From NCBI GenBank assembly GCA_013298985.1, contig JAAFJS010000012.1:1-47930 (forward strand): 47,930 nucleotides of DNA, given 5' to 3'. This document shows, in pieces, positions 4,693-25,363 of this stretch (within the stretch, counting starts at the first letter, position 1; each line of letters begins with the position of its first letter). Position numbers and translations under genes: made by a program. The stretch is from Cytophagales bacterium. GTDB lineage: Bacteria > Bacteroidota > Bacteroidia > Cytophagales > Thermoflexibacteraceae. The notes under the pieces were generated by a model. That model had not been told where the DNA came from, did not search any database, and saw nothing but the letters and a program-made list of their open reading frames with translations.

Positions 4693-5691
4693 ATGCAATA
4701 CACACTCAAAGACTTATTGGCTCTGATAGATGAAGATAATATCGTAAAATTAGTAGAAATCATAGATGATTTAAGAATCGCTGACCCTGCTTATGAAAGG
4801 TTAAAAAAGGAGTTCATACAGGGTGTAAGCAAGCACGACATTGATTTTCACAATCGATGGAAGGTTTTTATCCGCACCGAGAACGTAAAAAAGGCATTAA
4901 ACATTTTTTCAACTAAGCAAACTACCGATGAAAAGAATGTTGAATTTTATTTTAAGCAAGCAAATCAAAAGAATAAGTTACAAGACTATCAAGGTGCAAT
5001 TCAAGATTATACTAAGGCAATTCAAATTGATGCAAATGATGCTGTTGCCTATTTTAATAGAGGAAATGCAAAAGAAGAGTTACAAGACTATCAAGGTGCA
5101 ATTCAAGATTATACTAAGGCAATTCAAATTGATTCAAATTATGTTAATGCTTATGCCTATTTTGGTAGAGGATTTGTAAAATGTAAATTGCAAGATTATC
5201 AAGGTGCAATTCAAGATTATACTAAGGCAATTCAAATTGATTCAAATTATGTTAATGCCTATGGCAATAGAGGAAATGCAAAAATAGAGTTGCAAGATTA
5301 TCAAAGCGCAATTCAAGATTATACTAAGGCAATTCAAATTGACCCTAACAATCGTACTTCCTATTTTAATAGAGGAAATGCAAAGCTTGAGTTACAAGAC
5401 TATCAAGCTGCTATTCAAGACTATGATAAAGTGATTCAACTTGATACAAATTATATTGATGCCTATTATGGTAGAGGAAATGCAAAATATAATTTACAAG
5501 ATTATCAAGGTGCAATACAAGATTATAACAAGGCGATTGAATTAGATTATACTTACTCAAATGCTTACTATAATCGTGGTTTAATAAAACAAAAATTAAA
5601 AGATATGCAAGGTGCTTGTTTTGATTGGAAAATGGCAAAGCAGTTTGGACATAAAAAAGCAGAGGAGATTTTAGCAGAATATTGTAAATAA
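4693..5691 (+). CDS. TPR protein with possible effector-associated-like head
   Basis: This is a 332-residue cytoplasmic protein without a signal peptide. Residues 1-72 form an all-helical head. Its pattern (YERLKKEFIQGVSKHDIDFH, then NRWKVFI) resembles the small effector-associated adaptor domains (EAD11-like) that sit in front of signalling or conflict proteins; this match is by eye and weak. From about residue 83 there are seven TPR units of 34 residues, six sharing LQDYQxAIQDYxKAIQ; one has a two-residue insertion (NAYAYF). The last repeat ends in a GACFDWKMAKQFG-type segment and a terminal YCK. TPRs bind peptides, so the protein is probably a scaffold or adaptor. No effector gene lies next to it. 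Confidence 0.85.
   Translation: MQYTLKDLLALIDEDNIVKLVEIIDDLRIADPAYERLKKEFIQGVSKHDIDFHNRWKVFIRTENVKKALNIFSTKQTTDEKNVEFYFKQANQKNKLQDYQGAIQDYTKAIQIDANDAVAYFNRGNAKEELQDYQGAIQDYTKAIQIDSNYVNAYAYFGRGFVKCKLQDYQGAIQDYTKAIQIDSNYVNAYGNRGNAKIELQDYQSAIQDYTKAIQIDPNNRTSYFNRGNAKLELQDYQAAIQDYDKVIQLDTNYIDAYYGRGNAKYNLQDYQGAIQDYNKAIELDYTYSNAYYNRGLIKQKLKDMQGACFDWKMAKQFGHKKAEEILAEYCK
4978..5595 (+). repeat. Tandem 102-bp coding repeats
   Basis: Six repeat units start at 4978, 5080, 5188, 5290, 5392 and 5494. The spacing is 102 bp except one unit of 108 bp. Several units are nearly identical at the DNA level over long stretches, including synonymous sites, which is more similarity than TPR function alone requires. 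This points to recent unit duplication or gene conversion. Confidence 0.8.
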
Positions 5692-17277: not shown

Positions 17278-17493
17278 GATTTAAAATACCTTGCTTCCTG
17301 CAAAGGAGGAATGATGTTTCGTCATTCATGTGATTAGCTTTTACATACTTCACTACACACTATCTTTATGATGAAGAACTCACTACCTATGCACATTTAC
17401 AGTTTAAACGCCTTGCGTTTAAATATGCATAGGTAGTGGTTCTTCTGGAGTTGATAGGTATAGTCCTTAGAAAATACGAAGTTGTTTTAAATC
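17278..17493 (+). ncRNA. Retron msr-msd RNA
   Basis: This is the template RNA of a retron. Arm a1 (17278-17292) pairs with a2 (17479-17493) over 15 positions with one mismatch and one G-U pair. G17293, just after a1, is the candidate branching guanosine. The msr shows two stem-loops: CUUCCU/AGGAGG with a GCAA loop (17294-17309) and AAUGAUG/CGUCAUU with a UUU loop (17310-17326). The msd is a long hairpin: 7 bp, one bulged T (17380), 13 bp, an internal loop, and a 9-bp tip stem (403-411 with 415-423 of 17 kb) closed by CTT. A 5-bp base stem (17360-17364 with 17453-17457) may extend it. The reverse transcriptase gene follows. Folding was done by eye. Confidence 0.92.
17373..17445 (+). ncRNA. msd hairpin core
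   Basis: This part of the retron RNA is expected to be copied into multicopy single-stranded DNA. Positions 17373-17379 pair with 17439-17445 and 17381-17393 with 17426-17438, with T17380 bulged. Beyond a loop of 9 and 2 bases, a second stem 17403-17411/17415-17423 forms the tip. In known retrons the msd stem is what the partner effector or the RT complex senses. Confidence 0.85.
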
Positions 17494-17497
17494 TACC

Positions 17498-17530
17498 GCC
17501 CTATAAATCAGTCATTTATAGGGCTTTTTT
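17498..17530 (+). terminator. Terminator after the retron RNA
   Basis: An 11-bp stem (17498-17508 with 17514-17524) with a five-base loop is followed by six Ts. It lies five bases after a2. It should end most ncRNA transcripts and let only a fraction read into the reverse transcriptase, a common way of keeping RNA in excess. Confidence 0.88.
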
Positions 17531-17623: not shown

Positions 17624-19149
17624 ATGGCAGCACAGCTCACTCGTCAGCAATTATACGATAGGATTCGAGAAACCTCCAAAGATGCCTACATTTTAGAGGA
17701 AATGAAACGTCTGGGTTTTGGGAAAATACGCCCCAACCTACCGTTTCCGAACTCCTTATTCAGCAGGAAGCAAGCCTCCAAAAAGAACTCAACGAACTAC
17801 TGGAAAAACAGCGCAAGTACGACAGCAGAGAGGCTATGCTCAAAGAAATGCGTGCCGCCAAGCTCAAAGCCTCCAAAGAAAAACAAGCAGAAACCAAGCG
17901 CAAAAATGAGGAGAAAAGCAAGCAAAAAGCCGCCCAGTGGATAGAAAGCCAAGCCCAAAATATTACTTATTTGGGCAAAGAAATTTCCAAAGGACTGAAT
18001 TTGAAAGAGTCAAATCAAGCATTACTGGAAAAAAAACAGCTTCCTTACTTCGAAAATATCAACGTTTTGGCAGCAAAAATGGAACTGACGCTTTCCCAAA
18101 TACGCTTCTTGGCGTTCCATCGCAAAGTAAGTACCATCTGCCACTACAATTATTTCAGTATCCCCAAAAAATCAGGTGGCACTCGCCTTATTTCTGCGCC
18201 CAAAAAGCAACTCAAAAAAGTGCAAAACTGGATTTTAAATGAAATTCTTTACAAAATTACTCCCCAAAATGTGGTGCATGGCTTTGTGCCAAAGCGTTCT
18301 ATCAAGACCAACGCCGAAGCCCATTTGAAGCAAGCCGTAGTCATCAATCTCGACTTGAAAGACTTTTTTCCCTCTATTTCGTACAAAAGAGTAAAAGGAA
18401 TGTTCTGCAAATTGGGGTATTCTGAGCAGATTTCAACTGTTTTTGCGCTACTTTGTACGCAGGCAGAAGTCGACAAAATCAATGTAGATGGGCAAATTTT
18501 TTATGCACAAAAGGGTGACAGATTCTTACCACAAGGCTCGCCAGCCAGTCCTGCAATTACCACGCTGATTTGCCACAAAATGGACTTGCGCTTGAAAGGC
18601 TTGGCACAAAAGTTTGGCTTTTCCTATACGCGCTATGCAGATGATTTGACTTTTTCTGCCCCTATAGCTGATGAAAAAAATAGCAATCTTTTGCTTTGTT
18701 TTATAAAAAAAATAGTTGAAAGTGAGGACTTTACACTTCACCCTGACAAAACTCACGTCATGCGAAATGGCGCACAAAAGAAAGTTACAGGCATCATCGT
18801 CAATGAAAAACCCAACATAGACAGAGATACCATTCGCAAATTTAGGGCATTGCTTCACCAAATAGAACAAACGGGCTGGGCAGGCAAAAAGTGGGGAAAT
18901 TCCGAAAATATCGTCAGTAGCATCACTGGCTACGCCAACTTTATCAGCATGGTCAATCCCGAAAAAGGCAAAATTTTCAAAGACAAAATCAAGGAATTAT
19001 TGGCAAAATTTCCGCACAAAGAGGAGAAAGACGATAATGAAACAGTTTTTCGTGTGAAAACATACGAAAAAGGGACTGAAAAACCAGCACCGCCTATCAA
19101 AAAGGGCGACAAAGCTGGAAATGAATGGTGGGACGTATTTGAAAAGTAA
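17624..19149 (+). CDS. Retron reverse transcriptase, with apparent -1 frameshift
   Basis: The RT copies the msd into DNA that stays branched to the msr. The long frame (437 codons from ATG 17836) shows the retron-specific NAEAH (NAxxH) motif at 159-163, DLKDFF (motif A) at 173-178, QGSPASP at 233-239, the catalytic YADD at 267-270 and VTG at 317-319. The true N-terminus lies in another frame from ATG 17624: MAAQLTRQQLYDRIRETSKD, then ILEEMKRLGF. A -1 shift at GGGTTTT (17713-17719) continues it as WENTPQPTVSELL and restores a 508-residue protein. The heptamer fits the X XXY YYZ slippery pattern in the correct frame, but one lost T or a sequencing error explains it equally well. Residues after 72 form a Lys/Glu-rich helix before the RT domain. 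Confidence 0.92.
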
Positions 19150-19163
19150 AAACTGGATTTTTT

Positions 19164-19217
19164 ACTGGTTTAAGGCTGTGCCTTGAACCTCAAATAATTA
19201 TAAGCCTGTGGCTTGAA
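19164..19217 (+). repeat. REP-like module, left boundary copy
   Basis: This 54-bp module carries two small palindromes: GTTTAAGGC-tgt-GCCTTGAAC (19168-19188) and AAGCC-tgt-GGCTT (19202-19214). It begins 15 bases after the RT stop codon. It matches the right-most copy (about 21962-22016) at all but about two positions. A related copy starts just after the stop of the next gene (20707). Confidence 0.8.
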
Positions 19218-19255
19218 AAATACATAAGTAAATTATAAAGAAGAATTTTAAATTT

Positions 19256-20701
19256 ATGATATATAAAAGTATCACAACTGAATTTATAATTAGTGCAATT
19301 GATAAGGTAAAAGAAAAGTATGATATTTTAGATACAGACCTTAAAACTACAACAATTGAATTTTTCAAAAATTTGACTAATCAAGATATTGATTATGATT
19401 TTGAAAGCATAAAGAATTTGCACATAGATTTTTTTGGCGAAACAAAGTTATTTGAGGAGGGTATGAAAGATTTAATTCCCACAAAAGAAGGAATTTTTTA
19501 CCTATATATATGCGAAAATTTTTTTTGTATTGTTCCCAATGATAAAAATGACTCCATTATTAGCTTAATATCAAAAGATATTGAAGATATAAATTGTACA
19601 ATTCAAAAGTATAACTCTGAATTAGAGCAGTTAAAAGAGGTAAAAGAAGGTAAGCGTTATAAAGAGAGTCTTTTAAAACATTATTTAAAGAAACTTGAAA
19701 ATGCAAAAGAGCAAATCTTACAATTTGTTAAAGATAAATTAGAGATTAGTGTTAAAAAAAATAAATACAAACCTATCCTTCTAAATATATTTGATTGGGG
19801 AATGTATCATTATCATTACTTCCCAGAAACTTATAAAAAAGAATACTTGTCATCAGGACTGTTCCATAAATTAGCTGAACATAGTTTACACAATTTCATT
19901 GGATTAATACAATTATATAAAGAAAAAGGAGATGATATTTTTTGGGATGAGTATAAGAAGCAAGTAGATTTAATTGACTTAATTAATGATGTGAAATTGC
20001 TTTTAAAATGTCACCACAGATTGAGTGAGAGAAAGGATTTTATTGAGCAAGTTTTGCAATTACTTTCAGATGGTACATTAGAACTTTTTTGTAACATAAT
20101 GCCACTCCAAATTGAAGGATTAGTTTATGATTTGTGCTTAGAATTTGACTTAAAAGAATCAGATTTATTTACATCATCTATTACGGATAAAGTGGAAATA
20201 CTTAGAAAAAAAGATTTTTTAGATGATAGTTATTATGAATACTTTGCTTTTGTATTTCCAATAATAAGAAATAGAGTGGCACATGGAAAAAAGATAGAGA
20301 AAAATTTTGAACATTTAAGTTGGGAATTACTTTTAGATTTCAAATCAATTTGTAAACTTTTTTCATCCACAGAACTTCCCATCAATGCAAAATTGAGCCT
20401 AATAAAAATAGCTGATAAAAGCCGTTCTTTAGATAATTTGTTGAGTTTACATGAAGTTTTTAAATTTCAGATTGATACTTTTTATTCTTATGAGTTTAAT
20501 TTAATTGAAGAGTTAAAGAATGATTTAGCTAACAAATTAACAGAAGAAAATTTTAACAACGCCTTTGATTTAAAATCATTAACTGATGAAGAAAAGCACA
20601 AAATCAAGGATAGGATTATAGCTATAAAAGATTTAGATATTAATGCTTTGGTATGCAAAAAGATATTAAGTATATTAAACGTAGAAAAAAAGAAAATCTA
20701 A
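19256..20701 (+). CDS. HEPN-motif protein next to the retron; candidate effector
   Basis: This 481-residue protein has no close family that I can name. Near the C-terminus FPIIRNRVAHGKKI contains R338-x4-H343, the catalytic motif of HEPN ribonucleases, set between predicted helices; the RNRVAHG form also occurs at the end of DUF4209-type abortive-infection proteins. Residues 105-165 are a probable coiled coil. The rest is helical, Lys/Glu/Asp-rich and soluble. The gene is visibly more AT-rich than the RT before it and the WGR gene after it, a sign of separate acquisition. It lies 106 bp after the RT on the same strand, with REP-like modules on both sides. A role as retron toxin is inference; the RNase motif is seen but activity is not proven. 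Confidence 0.75.
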   Translation: MIYKSITTEFIISAIDKVKEKYDILDTDLKTTTIEFFKNLTNQDIDYDFESIKNLHIDFFGETKLFEEGMKDLIPTKEGIFYLYICENFFCIVPNDKNDSIISLISKDIEDINCTIQKYNSELEQLKEVKEGKRYKESLLKHYLKKLENAKEQILQFVKDKLEISVKKNKYKPILLNIFDWGMYHYHYFPETYKKEYLSSGLFHKLAEHSLHNFIGLIQLYKEKGDDIFWDEYKKQVDLIDLINDVKLLLKCHHRLSERKDFIEQVLQLLSDGTLELFCNIMPLQIEGLVYDLCLEFDLKESDLFTSSITDKVEILRKKDFLDDSYYEYFAFVFPIIRNRVAHGKKIEKNFEHLSWELLLDFKSICKLFSSTELPINAKLSLIKIADKSRSLDNLLSLHEVFKFQIDTFYSYEFNLIEELKNDLANKLTEENFNNAFDLKSLTDEEKHKIKDRIIAIKDLDINALVCKKILSILNVEKKKI

Positions 20702-20706
20702 ATTGA

Positions 20707-20864
20707 TTTAAGGCTATGCCTTGAACCCCAAATAATTACAAGACTTATTTTGCTTTATGTAAGCCAAAGGCTTACGAAATATATAGGTACAAGGCTTTTG
20801 TACCAGAAGAAAAGCTGGTTTAAGGCTCTGCCTTGAACCCAAAGCGTAGCAAGCCTTTGGCTTG
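20707..20864 (+). repeat. REP-like palindromes between HEPN gene and RAYT
   Basis: Successive palindromes are seen: AAGGC-tat-GCCTT, GTAAGCC-aaa-GGCTTAC, GGTACAA-ggctt-TTGTACC, AAGGC-tct-GCCTT and GCAAGCC-ttt-GGCTTGC. The last is preceded by the tetranucleotide GTAG (20846-20849), as in classical REP elements. The block begins six bases after the HEPN gene stop. Confidence 0.8.
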
Positions 20865-20894
20865 CAATAGTCTAAATATAAAATACAGAAAACT

Positions 20895-21419
20895 ATGCGA
20901 AGAACTGCTTATTCTACCGAAGCCAATTTTATTACCATGACCGTAGTGGATTGGTTAGATGTATTTACCAGAGTAGAGTACAAAGAAACGATTATCAAGT
21001 CCTTAGAGTTTTGTCGTAAGAACAAGAAAATGAGCATCTTCGCGTATGTACTGATGACCAATCACTTGCACTTAGTCGTACAAACAGATGGTACAAATTT
21101 GAGTGATATAGTAAGAGATTTTAAAAATTTTACAGCAAAAGAAATCATTAGACAAATCGAGAATAACCCACAAGAAAGCCGTAAAGAGTGGCTTCTAAGG
21201 ACTTTTCGTATGCGTGGCAAATACAATCCGTTAAATGAAATATATCAGTTTTGGCAAAATGGCTTTTATCCTGTGGCACTGACTTCTTTTGAAATGATGG
21301 AACAAAAAATAGACTATATTCACAATAACCCTGTGCTTGCAGGCTTTGTAAATGAGCCTTACGAGTGGCTTTATAGCAGTGCAAGTGCATTAAGTCCATT
21401 GAAAGTAGATGAATTGTAG
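20895..21419 (+). CDS. REP-associated tyrosine transposase (RAYT, TnpA_REP)
   Basis: The 174-residue protein belongs to the Y1 (HUH) transposase superfamily. The HUH motif is NHLHLVVQ (about residues 56-63), and the catalytic Tyr lies in KIDYIHNNPV (about 139-148). The N-terminus (TEANFITMTVVDW) and the WQNGFYPVAL segment are also typical of the group. RAYTs nick and rejoin REP palindromes and are usually single-copy, domesticated enzymes flanked by their REPs. Here GTAG-REP-like repeats flank it on both sides: one block upstream and a tandem array downstream. It is complete and appears intact. Confidence 0.93.
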   Translation: MRRTAYSTEANFITMTVVDWLDVFTRVEYKETIIKSLEFCRKNKKMSIFAYVLMTNHLHLVVQTDGTNLSDIVRDFKNFTAKEIIRQIENNPQESRKEWLLRTFRMRGKYNPLNEIYQFWQNGFYPVALTSFEMMEQKIDYIHNNPVLAGFVNEPYEWLYSSASALSPLKVDEL

Positions 21420-21432
21420 TGGTTTTGCTTTT

Positions 21433-22016
21433 GTAAGCCAAAGGCTTACAACATTTTAGGTACAAGGCAGAGCCTTGTACCAGAAGAAAAGCTGGTTTAA
21501 GACTTTGCCTTGAACCCAAAACGTAGCAAGCCTCTGGCTTGAAAATACATAAGCTACAGGCTTATGAAATATTCTGTTACAAGACAGAAGCCTTGTAACA
21601 GAAGAAAAGCTGGTTTAAGGCTCTGCCTTGAACCCCAAAGCGTAGCAAGCCTCTGGTTTGAAAATACATAAGCTACAGGCTTATGAAATATACTGTTACA
21701 AGACAGAAGCCTTGTACCAGAAGAAAAGCTGGTTTAAGGCTCTGCCTTGAACCCCAAAGCGTAGCAAGCCTCTGGTTTGAAAATACATAAGTTACAGGCT
21801 TATGAAATATACTGTTACAAGGCAGAGCCTTGTAACAGAAGAAAAGCTGGTTTAAGAGTTTGCCTTGAACCCCAAGGCGTAGCAAGCCTCTGGTTTGAAA
21901 ATACATAAGTTACAGGCTTATGAAATATACTGTTACAAGGCACAGTCTTGTAACAGAAGAAACTGGTTTAAGGCTCTGCCTTGAACCTCAAATAATTACA
22001 AGCCTGTGGCTTGAAC
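21433..22016 (+). repeat. Tandem array of about 118-bp REP-like units
   Basis: The shared block beginning cagaagaaa recurs at 21481, 21599, 21718, 21836 and 21954, a period of 118-119 bp. Each unit contains four small palindromes: GTTTAAGGC..GCCTTGAAC, a GTAG-preceded CAAGCCtctGGCTTG (GTAG at 21523, 21642, 21761 and 21879; later copies decayed to GGTTTG), an ATAAG..CTTAT palindrome, and ACAAGGCagaGCCTTGT. The array closes with a copy of the left boundary module. It is the likely substrate of the RAYT next to it. It has no gene. Confidence 0.9.
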
Positions 22017-22039: not shown

Positions 22040-25000
22040 ATGAAACTCATACAACAAAACAAACTTTTTTTCAAAGAAGGAAACTCTGACAAGGCGTATG
22101 AAATTGACCTTTGCGAGGTGGGTAGCAATCAGTTTGTGGTCAATTTTCGCTATGGGAAGCGGGGAAGCGCGCTCAAAGAAGGCACAAAAACGCCTACCCC
22201 TGTGGACAGAGATACCGCCGAAAAAGTTTTTGAGGCACTGACTGCGGAAAAGCGCAAAGGGGGCTATCAGTCTGAGGCTGAGATGTTTCAGGTTTTGCCT
22301 GTCCTGACCAGTACCGCGCCAAATACCGTAGAAGGAGCTATCCTACAACGCCTCCAAAATGCGATAGATGGCGTAAATACCTTCAAAACAGTTTGGACAA
22401 CCAGCAGGGTGGCGTGGCGCGTAGGTCAAATCAAATTTGCAGAAGCAGTGCCTTACCTCATCAAGTTGGTGGAAAAAGGCAATGATTTACAGCGTTATTC
22501 CATTCTTTGGGCATTGGCTCGATGCACCGACCAGCGAGCAATTCCTACTTTCCAAGCCTATTTTTCCAATTCGAAATACCCAGCCAATGTGCGTAAAATA
22601 GCAAGCGAAGGGCTTTTGAGAGCATTAAAAGAAGAAGAAAAAAATAAGTTTTTAGGCAGCTTGATAGAAAAACTACCTGAAGAAATTAAGCAATATGTTG
22701 TTAATAATCAAATAGATGCACTCAAAAAATGCGTTTCTGAAAGATTGGAGGAAAAGCAAACAGAATACAATTTTTTGGAAAACTTGTATGCAATAGCTAC
22801 TGAATTTCCTTTGGTACAAAAAACGGTGGCAGCAACTTTGTCTGAAATAGCCCTGCGACCGCCTCATTTTAAGCACATTAGGTCTATTTTCAAAACGGCA
22901 GAACTCCGAGATGATGCCCAAATTTTGGGCGTATTGGCGTACCAATTCGAGAAAACACCTGAAATGTATAAGGGCGTATCAGCGAGCAGTGGCGAAGATG
23001 ACGATTATGGTGATTATTATTTCAAAAAGTATATTCCAGCTCTCAATCAAACCGTTCATATCAAAAAAGAGCTAAAAAAGAGAGATTCCCGCATCGCTTT
23101 TTCAGATAAAACTAAGCTCTACTTCCAAAGGCGAATCGGCAGAAATCTGAGGCAAATAGCTGACAGAGATGCACTTAGCTATGTCAAGTTTGCGACAGCG
23201 ATTCTTTTACAATACAAAAACGAGGACTATACTGCGCCGTATAGCCGTTCGAGTGGGTATTCGGAATACGACAGATTATTACAGAAATATAGGCACACCA
23301 TCATAGAATTTCCTGCGTTGGCAAAATGCGTTTTACTCAATCAAATTCTTTTTGGAAATAATCCCAATATGGTGATGGATTTGAACGGCGCAGTATGCAG
23401 AATGAAAGAAACCAAAGTTGTCTTGACGGATAGTTGGCGTTATAGCGCGAGTGAAGCCACTGAAAATCAGGAAAATACAACTTCTATTATTTCAACGGCA
23501 CTGTCTTGGGTCAAAAATTTATTTGGCTCTATTTCGGCTACGCCCAGCAATAATAATGACAAAAAAGTGAACGAACAAGGGCAAATTGTCCCTGAAAGAC
23601 AGGAACTTTTCCCCGAACATTGGGATAAAATGCCACAGGCTTATTTGCAGTTATTGTTGCAGGCACATTTAGCCATCATCCATGAGTTTGCCTATAAAAA
23701 TCTAAGAAATCATGCTGATTATCAGCTTATTGAGGATAAAATAGACGAAGAAATGGTCATTCGCTTGCTTTCTTCTGATGCTCAAATTCCTGCTTGGTTT
23801 GGGTTGGAAATTGCCAAAAAACGATTGACCGAAAAAACAGATAGAAAGTTCATTTTGTTTCTTTTGGGGACAAAACTCGCCGAAGCAAGACAGTTGGCGC
23901 AGGAATTGATTGAAAAAGAGCCTCAAAGTTTTGTCAGCGAAAGCAATTTTGTTACACATCTGATTTTTAATTCCTATAAAGACGTAAGGATTTGGGCAAA
24001 AAACTTTTTGGCAAAAGTCCAATTTACAGAGGAAATACAAAAAGTAATTGTGGGTAAATCTATCTTGGAAATGCTTGCTATTCAGGAAAATACGCCTGAA
24101 AACAACGAAAAAGTAGCTGATGCCATTGCCATTTTATTGCAAATTGCGCCACAACTTTTGGCATCAGTTTCATGGAAAATGATAGAAGAATTATTGACTT
24201 CGACTTTGGAACAAAATCACGTGCTGGCAAGTGAAATTTTGGTGATGAAACTACGAAATATTGCCGCAGATGAGATTCCATTTTCTATTCTCAATGGATT
24301 TTTTGTGAGTAACTTGGAGGCAATGCGTAAAAATGGAATGACAATTTTTGCCCAATATCCTGAAGAAAAATTATTACAAGCGGCGGAATTATTGGCGCAG
24401 ATGCTGACTTCTCCCCACGAAAATATCAGAAGTGAGGCAAAAAATATAAGCAAAAAACTAATTGATAAAAGCATAGATTTTGCAAAGCAATTAACTGATT
24501 TTATGATAGTTGCCTCTATGAGAAAGGAAACTTACGAAAATTCGCACTTAGACATTTCTGTTTTTGTACTCATAGATTTGAAAAATTATTTGGCACATAT
24601 CAGCCTGAAAACCAGCCTCAAACTCATTTATGGCAACTACCGACAAGGGCAGTTTATTGGTTTTCATATTTTACAAAATCACATCAATCCTGCGGATATT
24701 TCTATTCGTCAGGTGGTCGCGCTTGGGAATCACGAATTGTTGGCGATAAGGCACTGGTGCTTAGACTTTTACAACAAAAACATCTTGCGTATTCGCTATG
24801 AAAGGGAAGAGGCAATTCGCCTGCTTGATGCCAGATGGGACGAGGTACGCTTGGCGGCAATGGACTTTTTTAGAACAAATTTCAGGGAGCAAGATTGGGA
24901 CATAGATAGCTTGGTGAGTGTCGCCGATTCGGTGCGCCCAGAAGTAGAAGCATTTGGTAAAGAGCTGATAACCAGATTTTTTCAAGAGGAAGACGGTAAA

Positions 25001-25363
25001 ACTTACCTCAGCAAACTCAGCCAGCACCCCAGCGTGAATATGCAACTTTTCGCCACCAATTACTTGGAACGCTTTGCTTCTGATGACTTAGAGAGGCTAA
25101 AAACCTTGTCGTTTTATTTCCGTTCGGTGCTGACAAGGGTAAACAAAGCAAGAACTGCCAAAGACCGCATTTTTAGTTTCTTGGAAAAAGAAGCCCTCAA
25201 ATCTGAGCCTACTGCTGCTTGGATAATGCTCATTTTCAATGATATACTGGCGACTAATGCGATTCAAGACAAGGCAAGGTGCATAGAAATCTTACAAAAA
25301 TTGAAGGAAAAATATCCTGATTTGGAAGTGATGATGGAGTTTGAAAGTTTGGAGAATGGTTGA
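22040..25363 (+). CDS. WGR-domain protein with HEAT-like repeats
   Basis: The 1107-residue cytoplasmic protein starts with a WGR domain (residues 1-80): NKLFFKEGNSDKAYEIDL, then FVVNFRYGKRGSALKEGTKT, where YGKRG replaces the name-giving WGRxG. WGR domains bind DNA in eukaryotic PARPs; in bacteria they also occur in large proteins of unknown role. The remainder is alpha-helical with HEAT/Armadillo-like pairs (AEAVPYLIKLVEKGNDLQRY near residue 135 and again after residue 800). A low-complexity linker lies near 490-520. It starts 24 bp after the repeat array; no promoter was recognised. Function is unknown. Confidence 0.82.
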   Translation: MKLIQQNKLFFKEGNSDKAYEIDLCEVGSNQFVVNFRYGKRGSALKEGTKTPTPVDRDTAEKVFEALTAEKRKGGYQSEAEMFQVLPVLTSTAPNTVEGAILQRLQNAIDGVNTFKTVWTTSRVAWRVGQIKFAEAVPYLIKLVEKGNDLQRYSILWALARCTDQRAIPTFQAYFSNSKYPANVRKIASEGLLRALKEEEKNKFLGSLIEKLPEEIKQYVVNNQIDALKKCVSERLEEKQTEYNFLENLYAIATEFPLVQKTVAATLSEIALRPPHFKHIRSIFKTAELRDDAQILGVLAYQFEKTPEMYKGVSASSGEDDDYGDYYFKKYIPALNQTVHIKKELKKRDSRIAFSDKTKLYFQRRIGRNLRQIADRDALSYVKFATAILLQYKNEDYTAPYSRSSGYSEYDRLLQKYRHTIIEFPALAKCVLLNQILFGNNPNMVMDLNGAVCRMKETKVVLTDSWRYSASEATENQENTTSIISTALSWVKNLFGSISATPSNNNDKKVNEQGQIVPERQELFPEHWDKMPQAYLQLLLQAHLAIIHEFAYKNLRNHADYQLIEDKIDEEMVIRLLSSDAQIPAWFGLEIAKKRLTEKTDRKFILFLLGTKLAEARQLAQELIEKEPQSFVSESNFVTHLIFNSYKDVRIWAKNFLAKVQFTEEIQKVIVGKSILEMLAIQENTPENNEKVADAIAILLQIAPQLLASVSWKMIEELLTSTLEQNHVLASEILVMKLRNIAADEIPFSILNGFFVSNLEAMRKNGMTIFAQYPEEKLLQAAELLAQMLTSPHENIRSEAKNISKKLIDKSIDFAKQLTDFMIVASMRKETYENSHLDISVFVLIDLKNYLAHISLKTSLKLIYGNYRQGQFIGFHILQNHINPADISIRQVVALGNHELLAIRHWCLDFYNKNILRIRYEREEAIRLLDARWDEVRLAAMDFFRTNFREQDWDIDSLVSVADSVRPEVEAFGKELITRFFQEEDGKTYLSKLSQHPSVNMQLFATNYLERFASDDLERLKTLSFYFRSVLTRVNKARTAKDRIFSFLEKEALKSEPTAAWIMLIFNDILATNAIQDKARCIEILQKLKEKYPDLEVMMEFESLENG

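Follow-up and report, generated by a model that had tools for sequence, protein, structure and literature searches.

A Bacteroidota RAYT gene nested in a tandem array of REP-like hairpin units between the genes of a type XIII retron

Retron genes and an enlarged intergenic gap

The window, which is the whole stretch of 47,930 nucleotides that was analysed, contains both genes by which a type XIII retron is recognized. The reverse transcriptase (RT) gene, at positions 17836 to 19149 of the plus strand, matches the PADLOC model RT_XIII with an E-value of 1.7e-173. Its partner, which encodes a WGR protein, lies on the same strand at 22040 to 25363 (WGR_XIII, 1107.7 bits). The N-terminal part of the RT is found in another frame, within an ORF at 17624 to 17944 that also matches RT_XIII (E-value 1.5e-7). 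This apparent frame break could reflect a genuine mutation or an error in the assembly. Upstream of the RT gene, the region from 17330 to 17500 is predicted to fold strongly as RNA (z-score -5.6) with a long stem, and is a candidate msr-msd. No Rfam family reaches its gathering threshold anywhere in the window.

The RT and WGR genes are separated by 2890 bp, whereas the corresponding gap measures 13 to 108 bp in nine relatives. The additional sequence consists of REP units, an orphan gene and an array that holds a RAYT gene. In 20 of 29 related loci, including one from the same family (L084), no WGR match was found within about 1.5 kb downstream of the RT, so other RT/WGR arrangements also exist.

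The orphan gene (19256 to 20701, plus strand) encodes a protein of 481 amino acids that contains the sequence RNRVAHG. This protein has no Pfam match up to an E-value of 5, and no match in PADLOC or NCBIfam. A search of 390 genomes recovered the gene itself and one weak match at 22% identity. Carriage by plasmids was also considered, and the plasmid set contained no match.

The RAYT gene and its protein

The ORF at 20895 to 21419 of the plus strand encodes an intact HUH/Y1 enzyme of 174 amino acids. The protein scores 101.6 bits against the NCBIfam model REP_Tyr_transpos (NF047646), above that model's cut-off of 80, and it also matches the Pfam family Y1_Tnp (PF01797). An AlphaFold2 model built with an alignment of 51 sequences has a mean pLDDT of 94.3. 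The solved structure closest to this model is that of TnpA_REP (4er8; Z 15.2 over 135 residues, rmsd 2.3), a RAYT in complex with a REP hairpin, and the second-best match is IS608 (Z 11.8). Matches below Z 9, to Thg1 and others, were read as a common arrangement only.

The motifs NHLH, FWQ and YIHNNP can be read directly from the sequence, and they fit the row NH[LIV]H / WQ / YIH[QN]NP that a table in PMC6006769 gives for TnpA_Y1 subclass 2.6. That subclass is described there as a Bacteroidetes class of about 179 amino acids, equal to RAYT group 5. By its motifs, family profile and fold, the enzyme is probably a member of this class in Bacteroidota. The span between its HUH and WQ motifs is about 28 residues longer than in 4er8, as calculated from two alignment offsets, and an insertion of about 21 amino acids between alphaC and beta4 is reported for subclass 2.6 (PMC6006769). 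Residues E94, S95 and R96 in the extra stretch are invariant among the 51 aligned sequences.

The genome, a draft of 383 contigs, contains one copy of this RAYT. The next RAYT in the same genome (L052, C95:5342-6326) is 50% identical to it, and the most similar one found in relatives is 53% identical. A partial Y1 relative follows the second RAYT.

Organization of the hairpin array

Palindromes with three-base loops lie on both sides of the RAYT gene, beginning at 20817, 20847, 21429 and 21459, and are repeated farther downstream. A sequence-only reading of this DNA had described a HUH/Y1 enzyme among such palindromes, and both parts of that description hold. The left flank (20815 to 20894, plus strand), delimited by the hairpin list and by unit alignment, is a hairpin doublet. 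Its first hairpin, H1 (20817-20839, plus strand), has the sequence GGTTTAAGGC-tct-GCCTTGAACC, with GCT at the foot and TCT in the loop. The second, H2 (20847-20867, plus strand), is CAAGCC-ttt-GGCTTG, and is preceded by or overlaps the tetranucleotide GTAG. A repeat and hairpin search identified an inverted doublet on the right flank (21420 to 21491, minus strand), which consists of H3' (21429-21453) and H4' (21459-21481). When read on the minus strand, H4' has a TCT foot and a TCT loop. The right flank thus mirrors the left, with 82% complementarity across the 56 nt of the arms at 20815-20870 and 21428-21483.

A full unit of the array comprises H1 and H2 followed by the inverted H3' and H4'. 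When joined, the two flanks of the RAYT gene align as one further unit, U2, so that the gene is nested within a unit of the array. Upstream of U2 is U1 (20703 to 20814), in which H1 and H3' are accompanied by degenerate H2 and H4' hairpins, as seen in the hairpin list and unit alignment. Downstream, tandem-repeat search and unit alignment delimit U3 (21492 to 21609), U4 (21610 to 21728), U5 (21729 to 21846) and U6 (21847 to 21962), and the alignment adds a terminal half unit, U7 (21963 to 22015), with H1 and H2 but no GTAG. All of these units are on the plus strand, and together with U2 they make seven units or half units arranged head to tail from 20703 to 22015. Tandem Repeats Finder (TRF) reports a period of 119 bp, with 4.5 copies and 93% matches, from 21461 to 21992. 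The unit-to-unit spacing of 118 to 119 bp agrees with the downstream 118-bp tandem units proposed in the sequence-only reading. The array, which ends with the half unit at 22015, is also larger than was then recognized, as a truncated copy, U0 (19165 to 19228, plus strand, 83% match), lies just 3' of the retron RT gene. U0 contains H1 and H2 without GTAG. Seven pieces of the array were folded as single-stranded DNA, and their z-scores of -2.9 to -7.8 indicate hairpins beyond chance. Elsewhere in the window, a TPR-type ORF (4693-5691) contains 102-bp tandem repeats at 4948-5538.

Direct REP units flank the 481-aa ORF on both sides, at 19165 and at 20703, which raises the possibility that the gene and the array are one cargo-carrying element whose bracketed gene moves with it. 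The near-orphan status of the gene and the lack of the entire block in the RT-WGR gap of the nine relatives would both suit such an element. However, the bracket is asymmetric, with a truncated unit on the left and a unit directly adjoining the ORF on the right, and this kind of bracket was observed only once. We consider a cargo element of this kind improbable.

Hairpin design at related RAYT loci

The flanks of 111 RAYT loci were compared, of which 31 come from this genome and its relatives and 80 are named loci, almost all from Bacteroidota. A mirrored pair was defined as a left hairpin that matches the reverse complement of a right hairpin in at least 78% of positions over 23 to 24 nt. Mirrored hairpins occur across the gene in 60 of the 111 loci, and the other 51 gave no such pair. 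When left flanks were compared with the right flanks of other loci in 200 permutations, the mean number of pairs was 0.78 and the maximum was 5. Alternative thresholds agree.

Two further features recur in paired hairpins, often a CT at the foot and usually a T as the first base of the loop. The idea was drawn from the first set of loci and then measured on the second. Among the 45 pairs of that second set, the two bases immediately flanking the 10-bp core on the outer side are CT in 16 left and 20 right hairpins, and in 16 pairs this holds for both hairpins; at any other offset CT occurs in at most 6 of 45. The foot is therefore present in only 36 to 44% of paired hairpins. The first loop base is T in 40 of 45 cases on each side. 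After removal of look-alikes, 38 pairs remain, with CT in 12 and 16 of them and T-first loops in 33 and 34. Hairpins without a partner have the CT foot in 15 of 120 cases, and the preference for T is not exclusive to paired hairpins, because 76 of these 120 are also T-first. Positions -8 to -4 outside the core are C-rich, with C fractions of 0.38 and 0.32 compared with 0.13 and 0.19 inside.

Both features have counterparts in characterized enzymes. The TnpA_REP proteins of E. coli and Stenotrophomonas cleave at a CT located 5' or 3' of the REP (PMC8266576), so the CT foot would fit a cut site or a guide. The same source states that a loop T is contacted by IS200/IS605 transposases; ISDra2 is named, and we take the second to be IS608.

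Dispersed hairpins in the genome

Hairpins resembling those of the array are found elsewhere in the genome. The pattern GGTNNAAGSBNNNVSCTTNNACC, which with up to one mismatch accepts both AAGGC stems and sister AAGCG stems, has 60 sites in this genome, and its reversed control has none. Of the 50 sites that were listed, 9 belong to the window array and 18 are AAGGC-type sites elsewhere, and most others are of the AAGCG type, which makes up about half of the dispersed sites among these listed matches. At least one of the listed matches (C105) is no palindrome. In 58 other genomes, the pattern has 0 to 7 sites each, with the exception of G031, which has 15 sites (control 0) and whose RAYT locus L071 carries GGTRCAAGCG hairpins. 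Of 13 sites checked in the window's own genome, 12 are outside any ORF of at least 100 amino acids; these are all six that were checked in the array and six of the seven elsewhere. Two of those seven sites represent one place, and two further loci were too short.

At seven places among the listed matches, an AAGGC hairpin and an AAGCG hairpin are 29 to 31 bp apart. These doublets, such as C67:11276-11327, C72:6067-6118 and C157:37073-37126, constitute a second type of REP doublet, which is absent from the window array. At another locus (L047, C301:18303-18517), four H1-type REP copies at intervals of 39 bp, together with a variant copy, form 13-aa repeats in frame within a stop-to-stop frame of 545 codons on the minus strand.

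Other RAYTs are accompanied by other hairpins. The second RAYT of this genome has a different hairpin, with 14 sites at up to two mismatches and none in the control. The hairpin of the RAYT in genome G073 has only 3 sites, of which 2 adjoin the gene.

The palindromes might instead function mainly as transcription terminators or RNA-stability hairpins that were expanded by slippage between operon genes, with the RAYT as a passive neighbor. They do occur in gaps between genes, including every gap among the RT, the 481-aa ORF, the RAYT and the WGR gene, and the hardly dispersed hairpin family in G073 could be explained in the same way. However, terminators would not account well for hairpins that match across the gene in more than half of the RAYT loci and hardly across loci, or for two RAYTs in one genome that have different hairpins, each with its own set. 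The array in frame within an open frame on C301 also argues against this explanation, to which we assign little likelihood. That the array is mere tandem junk was rejected, because a genome-wide set of the hairpins exists and because hairpins in relatives match across the gene.

The GTAG tetranucleotide

The sequence-only reading reported at least five CAAGCC stems preceded by GTAG and saw in them a GTAG logic conserved in Bacteroidota. Exactly five such stems are present, directly behind GTAG, starting at 20850, 21527, 21646, 21765 and 21883. Four other AAGCC-type stems on the plus strand, at 19201, 20760, 21434 and 21999, lack it, so that GTAG accompanies five of nine. All five GTAG stems are in-register copies of one unit, and they therefore represent one event rather than five. 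The mirrored sister stem has GTTG in place of GTAG, and the array end copies have ATTA.

These five stems, with GTAG exactly at the foot, are a reason to consider a canonical enterobacterial REPtron, in which the enzyme would recognize GTAG at the base of the CAAGCC stems. Residues W94 and Q95 of TnpA_REP are also retained, as W120 and Q121. However, the alignment to 4er8 places P, V and T opposite E100, H101 and R104, three residues that PMC6006769 names when it describes how GTAG is contacted. The GTAG-tagged stem is also hardly dispersed. Genome-wide, the sequence AAGCCNNNGGCTT occurs at 11 sites, of which 6 are in the array and 1 is elsewhere in the window, and its reversed control occurs at 3. 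Within this genome, the H1 (AAGGC) type is found elsewhere, and the GTAG-tagged AAGCC stem is nearly confined to the array.

Comparison with relatives gives no indication of a conserved tag. GTAG or GTGG is found within 6 nt of 14 of the 437 hairpins beside the 111 RAYTs, which is near the chance level by our estimate of roughly 2%, and within 6 nt of none of the 60 paired hairpin cores on either side. PMC6006769 likewise describes the hairpins of the Bacteroidetes subclass 2.6 as lacking GT[AG]G and the corresponding protein region as not conserved. At this locus a GT[AG]G foot is not the rule, and three of the named contact residues are replaced. Hairpins without GT[AG]G and copies elsewhere in the genome, which characterize subclass 2.6, were found, and the five tandem-copied stems are the exception. 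GTAG as a conserved guide was rejected on the grounds of stem dispersal, contact residues, paired cores, the stems that lack the tag and the hairpin count; this RAYT does not seem to use the tag, and a canonical GTAG REPtron is very unlikely. The remainder of the earlier interpretation is retained, namely a RAYT among cognate-looking tandem palindromes, with H1-type copies elsewhere.

Evidence regarding mobility

Several relatives contain RAYT copies that are similar enough to reveal the limits of the shared sequence. In G031, loci L220 and L221, both on one 13-kb contig, are 97.4% identical over 720 bp. The identity starts and stops at hairpins, and the flanks differ. The pair L210/L211, on two contigs, is 94.5% identical over 727 bp, with ends within about 10 bp of hairpins. 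The pair L222/L223, on one contig, shares a 95.2% identical block that ends at hairpins, which have the same orientation; the RAYTs of this pair are only distantly related to that of the window, with 31% identity. Five RAYT copies in G047 are 89.8 to 99.4% identical in the gene. In two of the G047 pairs, L215/L216 and L215/L219, the block reaches the hairpin region at one end only. A third pair, L216/L217, is 99.4% identical, and because the similarity is limited to the gene, this pattern suggests gene conversion better than movement of a whole element. An empty-site query in the genus of G047 used a flank that gave 23 matches in its own genome. The pair L213/L214 in G060 (99.8%) was excluded, as each locus lies at the end of a contig and the two may have arisen by duplication in the assembly.

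Subclass 2.6 averages 1.8 copies per genome and 40.7% identity (PMC6006769), values that are not IS-like. Judging from where their similarity ends, some of the RAYT copies in relatives resemble mobile blocks and others do not. The window's RAYT is a single copy, with the next one only half identical, so that movement of the window element itself is putative.

Proposed function of the units

The RAYTs known so far are mostly domesticated enzymes that are associated with repeats carrying a GTAG tag. The explanation that we favor, and consider probable, is that the window carries a subclass 2.6 RAYT with its own REP family, made up of REPIN-like units that present a T-loop/CT-foot substrate, and that the block was inserted into a retron. 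The basic unit, about 119 bp long, resembles a REPIN and has two hairpins in one orientation followed by two in the opposite one; its outer hairpins (H1 and H4) have CT at the outward-facing foot and a loop that starts with T. The RAYT might bind the T-loop hairpin when it is single-stranded, for example behind a replication fork, and would then cut beside the CT at the outer foot by means of Tyr141. Cleavage could thereby copy or move a doublet, a unit or the gene-bearing element, and the RAYT might be the source of the dispersed copies. Repeated use, or slippage, may have led to tandem growth of the array. The array and the unrelated orphan gene would then occupy what is a short RT-WGR gap in related type XIII retrons, and might have an effect on the retron.

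A bolder possibility, which we hold to be doubtful, is that some subclass 2.6 RAYTs are live, self-moving readers of the T loop and CT foot, half-way between IS200/IS605 and REP systems, whose REP units can bracket passenger genes and bring them into defence loci. Recognition in such elements might perhaps involve the ESR-bearing extra stretch.

The outer CT foot, T-first loop and mirrored hairpins amount to a substrate rule that can be tested in the Bacteroidota class. Gene-bearing and gene-less units are adjacent in one array at this locus, relatives are now identified in which RAYT elements may still move, and a REP/RAYT block is located between two genes of a retron, a phage-defence locus.

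Comparison with known systems

The locus is a true RAYT-REP system that adds a member to an already described class in Bacteroidota, without the GTAG claim. Among the papers listed by a literature search, no title or start of an abstract gave an account of this locus or of the CT/T rule, and a search on retrons with insertion sequences and REP sequences found no paper. Thus, the rule of CT foot, T loop and mirrored hairpins, the nesting of the gene in a tandem unit and the site within a retron were not seen in print.

The closest published relatives are those of subclass 2.6 itself, which share with the window RAYT an origin in Bacteroidota, the motifs, flanking hairpins that generally lack GT[AG]G, and copies elsewhere in the genome (PMC6006769). 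The extra residues ahead of the WQ strand may also correspond to the insertion of that subclass. In the parts of that paper that bear on this class (Quentin et al. 2018), the hairpins are called 'atypical' and are given no foot or loop rule. In contrast, the hairpins described here have an outer CT foot and a T-first loop and are mirrored, and the unit is in tandem around the gene.

The E. coli REPtron (Y and Z REPs, BIMEs; group 2 or subclass 2.2) has the same HUH/Y1 fold, as indicated by the match to 4er8, and also includes inverted REP pairs and arrays around the gene, with CT beside the hairpin. It differs from the present system, which has no conserved GTAG guide, has replacements at three GTAG-contact residues and has the longer HUH-WQ span. 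TIRtrons, with their TIRYT genes, likewise combine RAYT-like genes with inverted, partly self-complementary repeats that bear no relation to GTAG REPs (Di Nocera et al. 2013, PMC3733652). However, TIRtrons share the TIR motif GGGGWSAS, whereas the window has a CT foot and T-loop hairpins, and Bacteroidota are not among the hosts named in the portions of PMC3733652 considered here.

Elements of the IS200/IS605 family (IS608, ISDra2) resemble this locus in having loop-T hairpins and a Y1 enzyme, and the 720-bp hairpin-ended block of one relative adds to the likeness. Unlike in that family, the end hairpins of the window element mirror each other rather than lying on the same strand, and the 383-contig draft does not contain multiple near-identical copies of the gene-bearing element. 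No tnpB was found among the neighboring ORFs that were searched. Finally, the locus is like a type XIII retron in its RT_XIII and WGR_XIII genes, and it is set apart by the apparent frame break in the RT and by the 2.9-kb block of REP units, RAYT and orphan gene between them.
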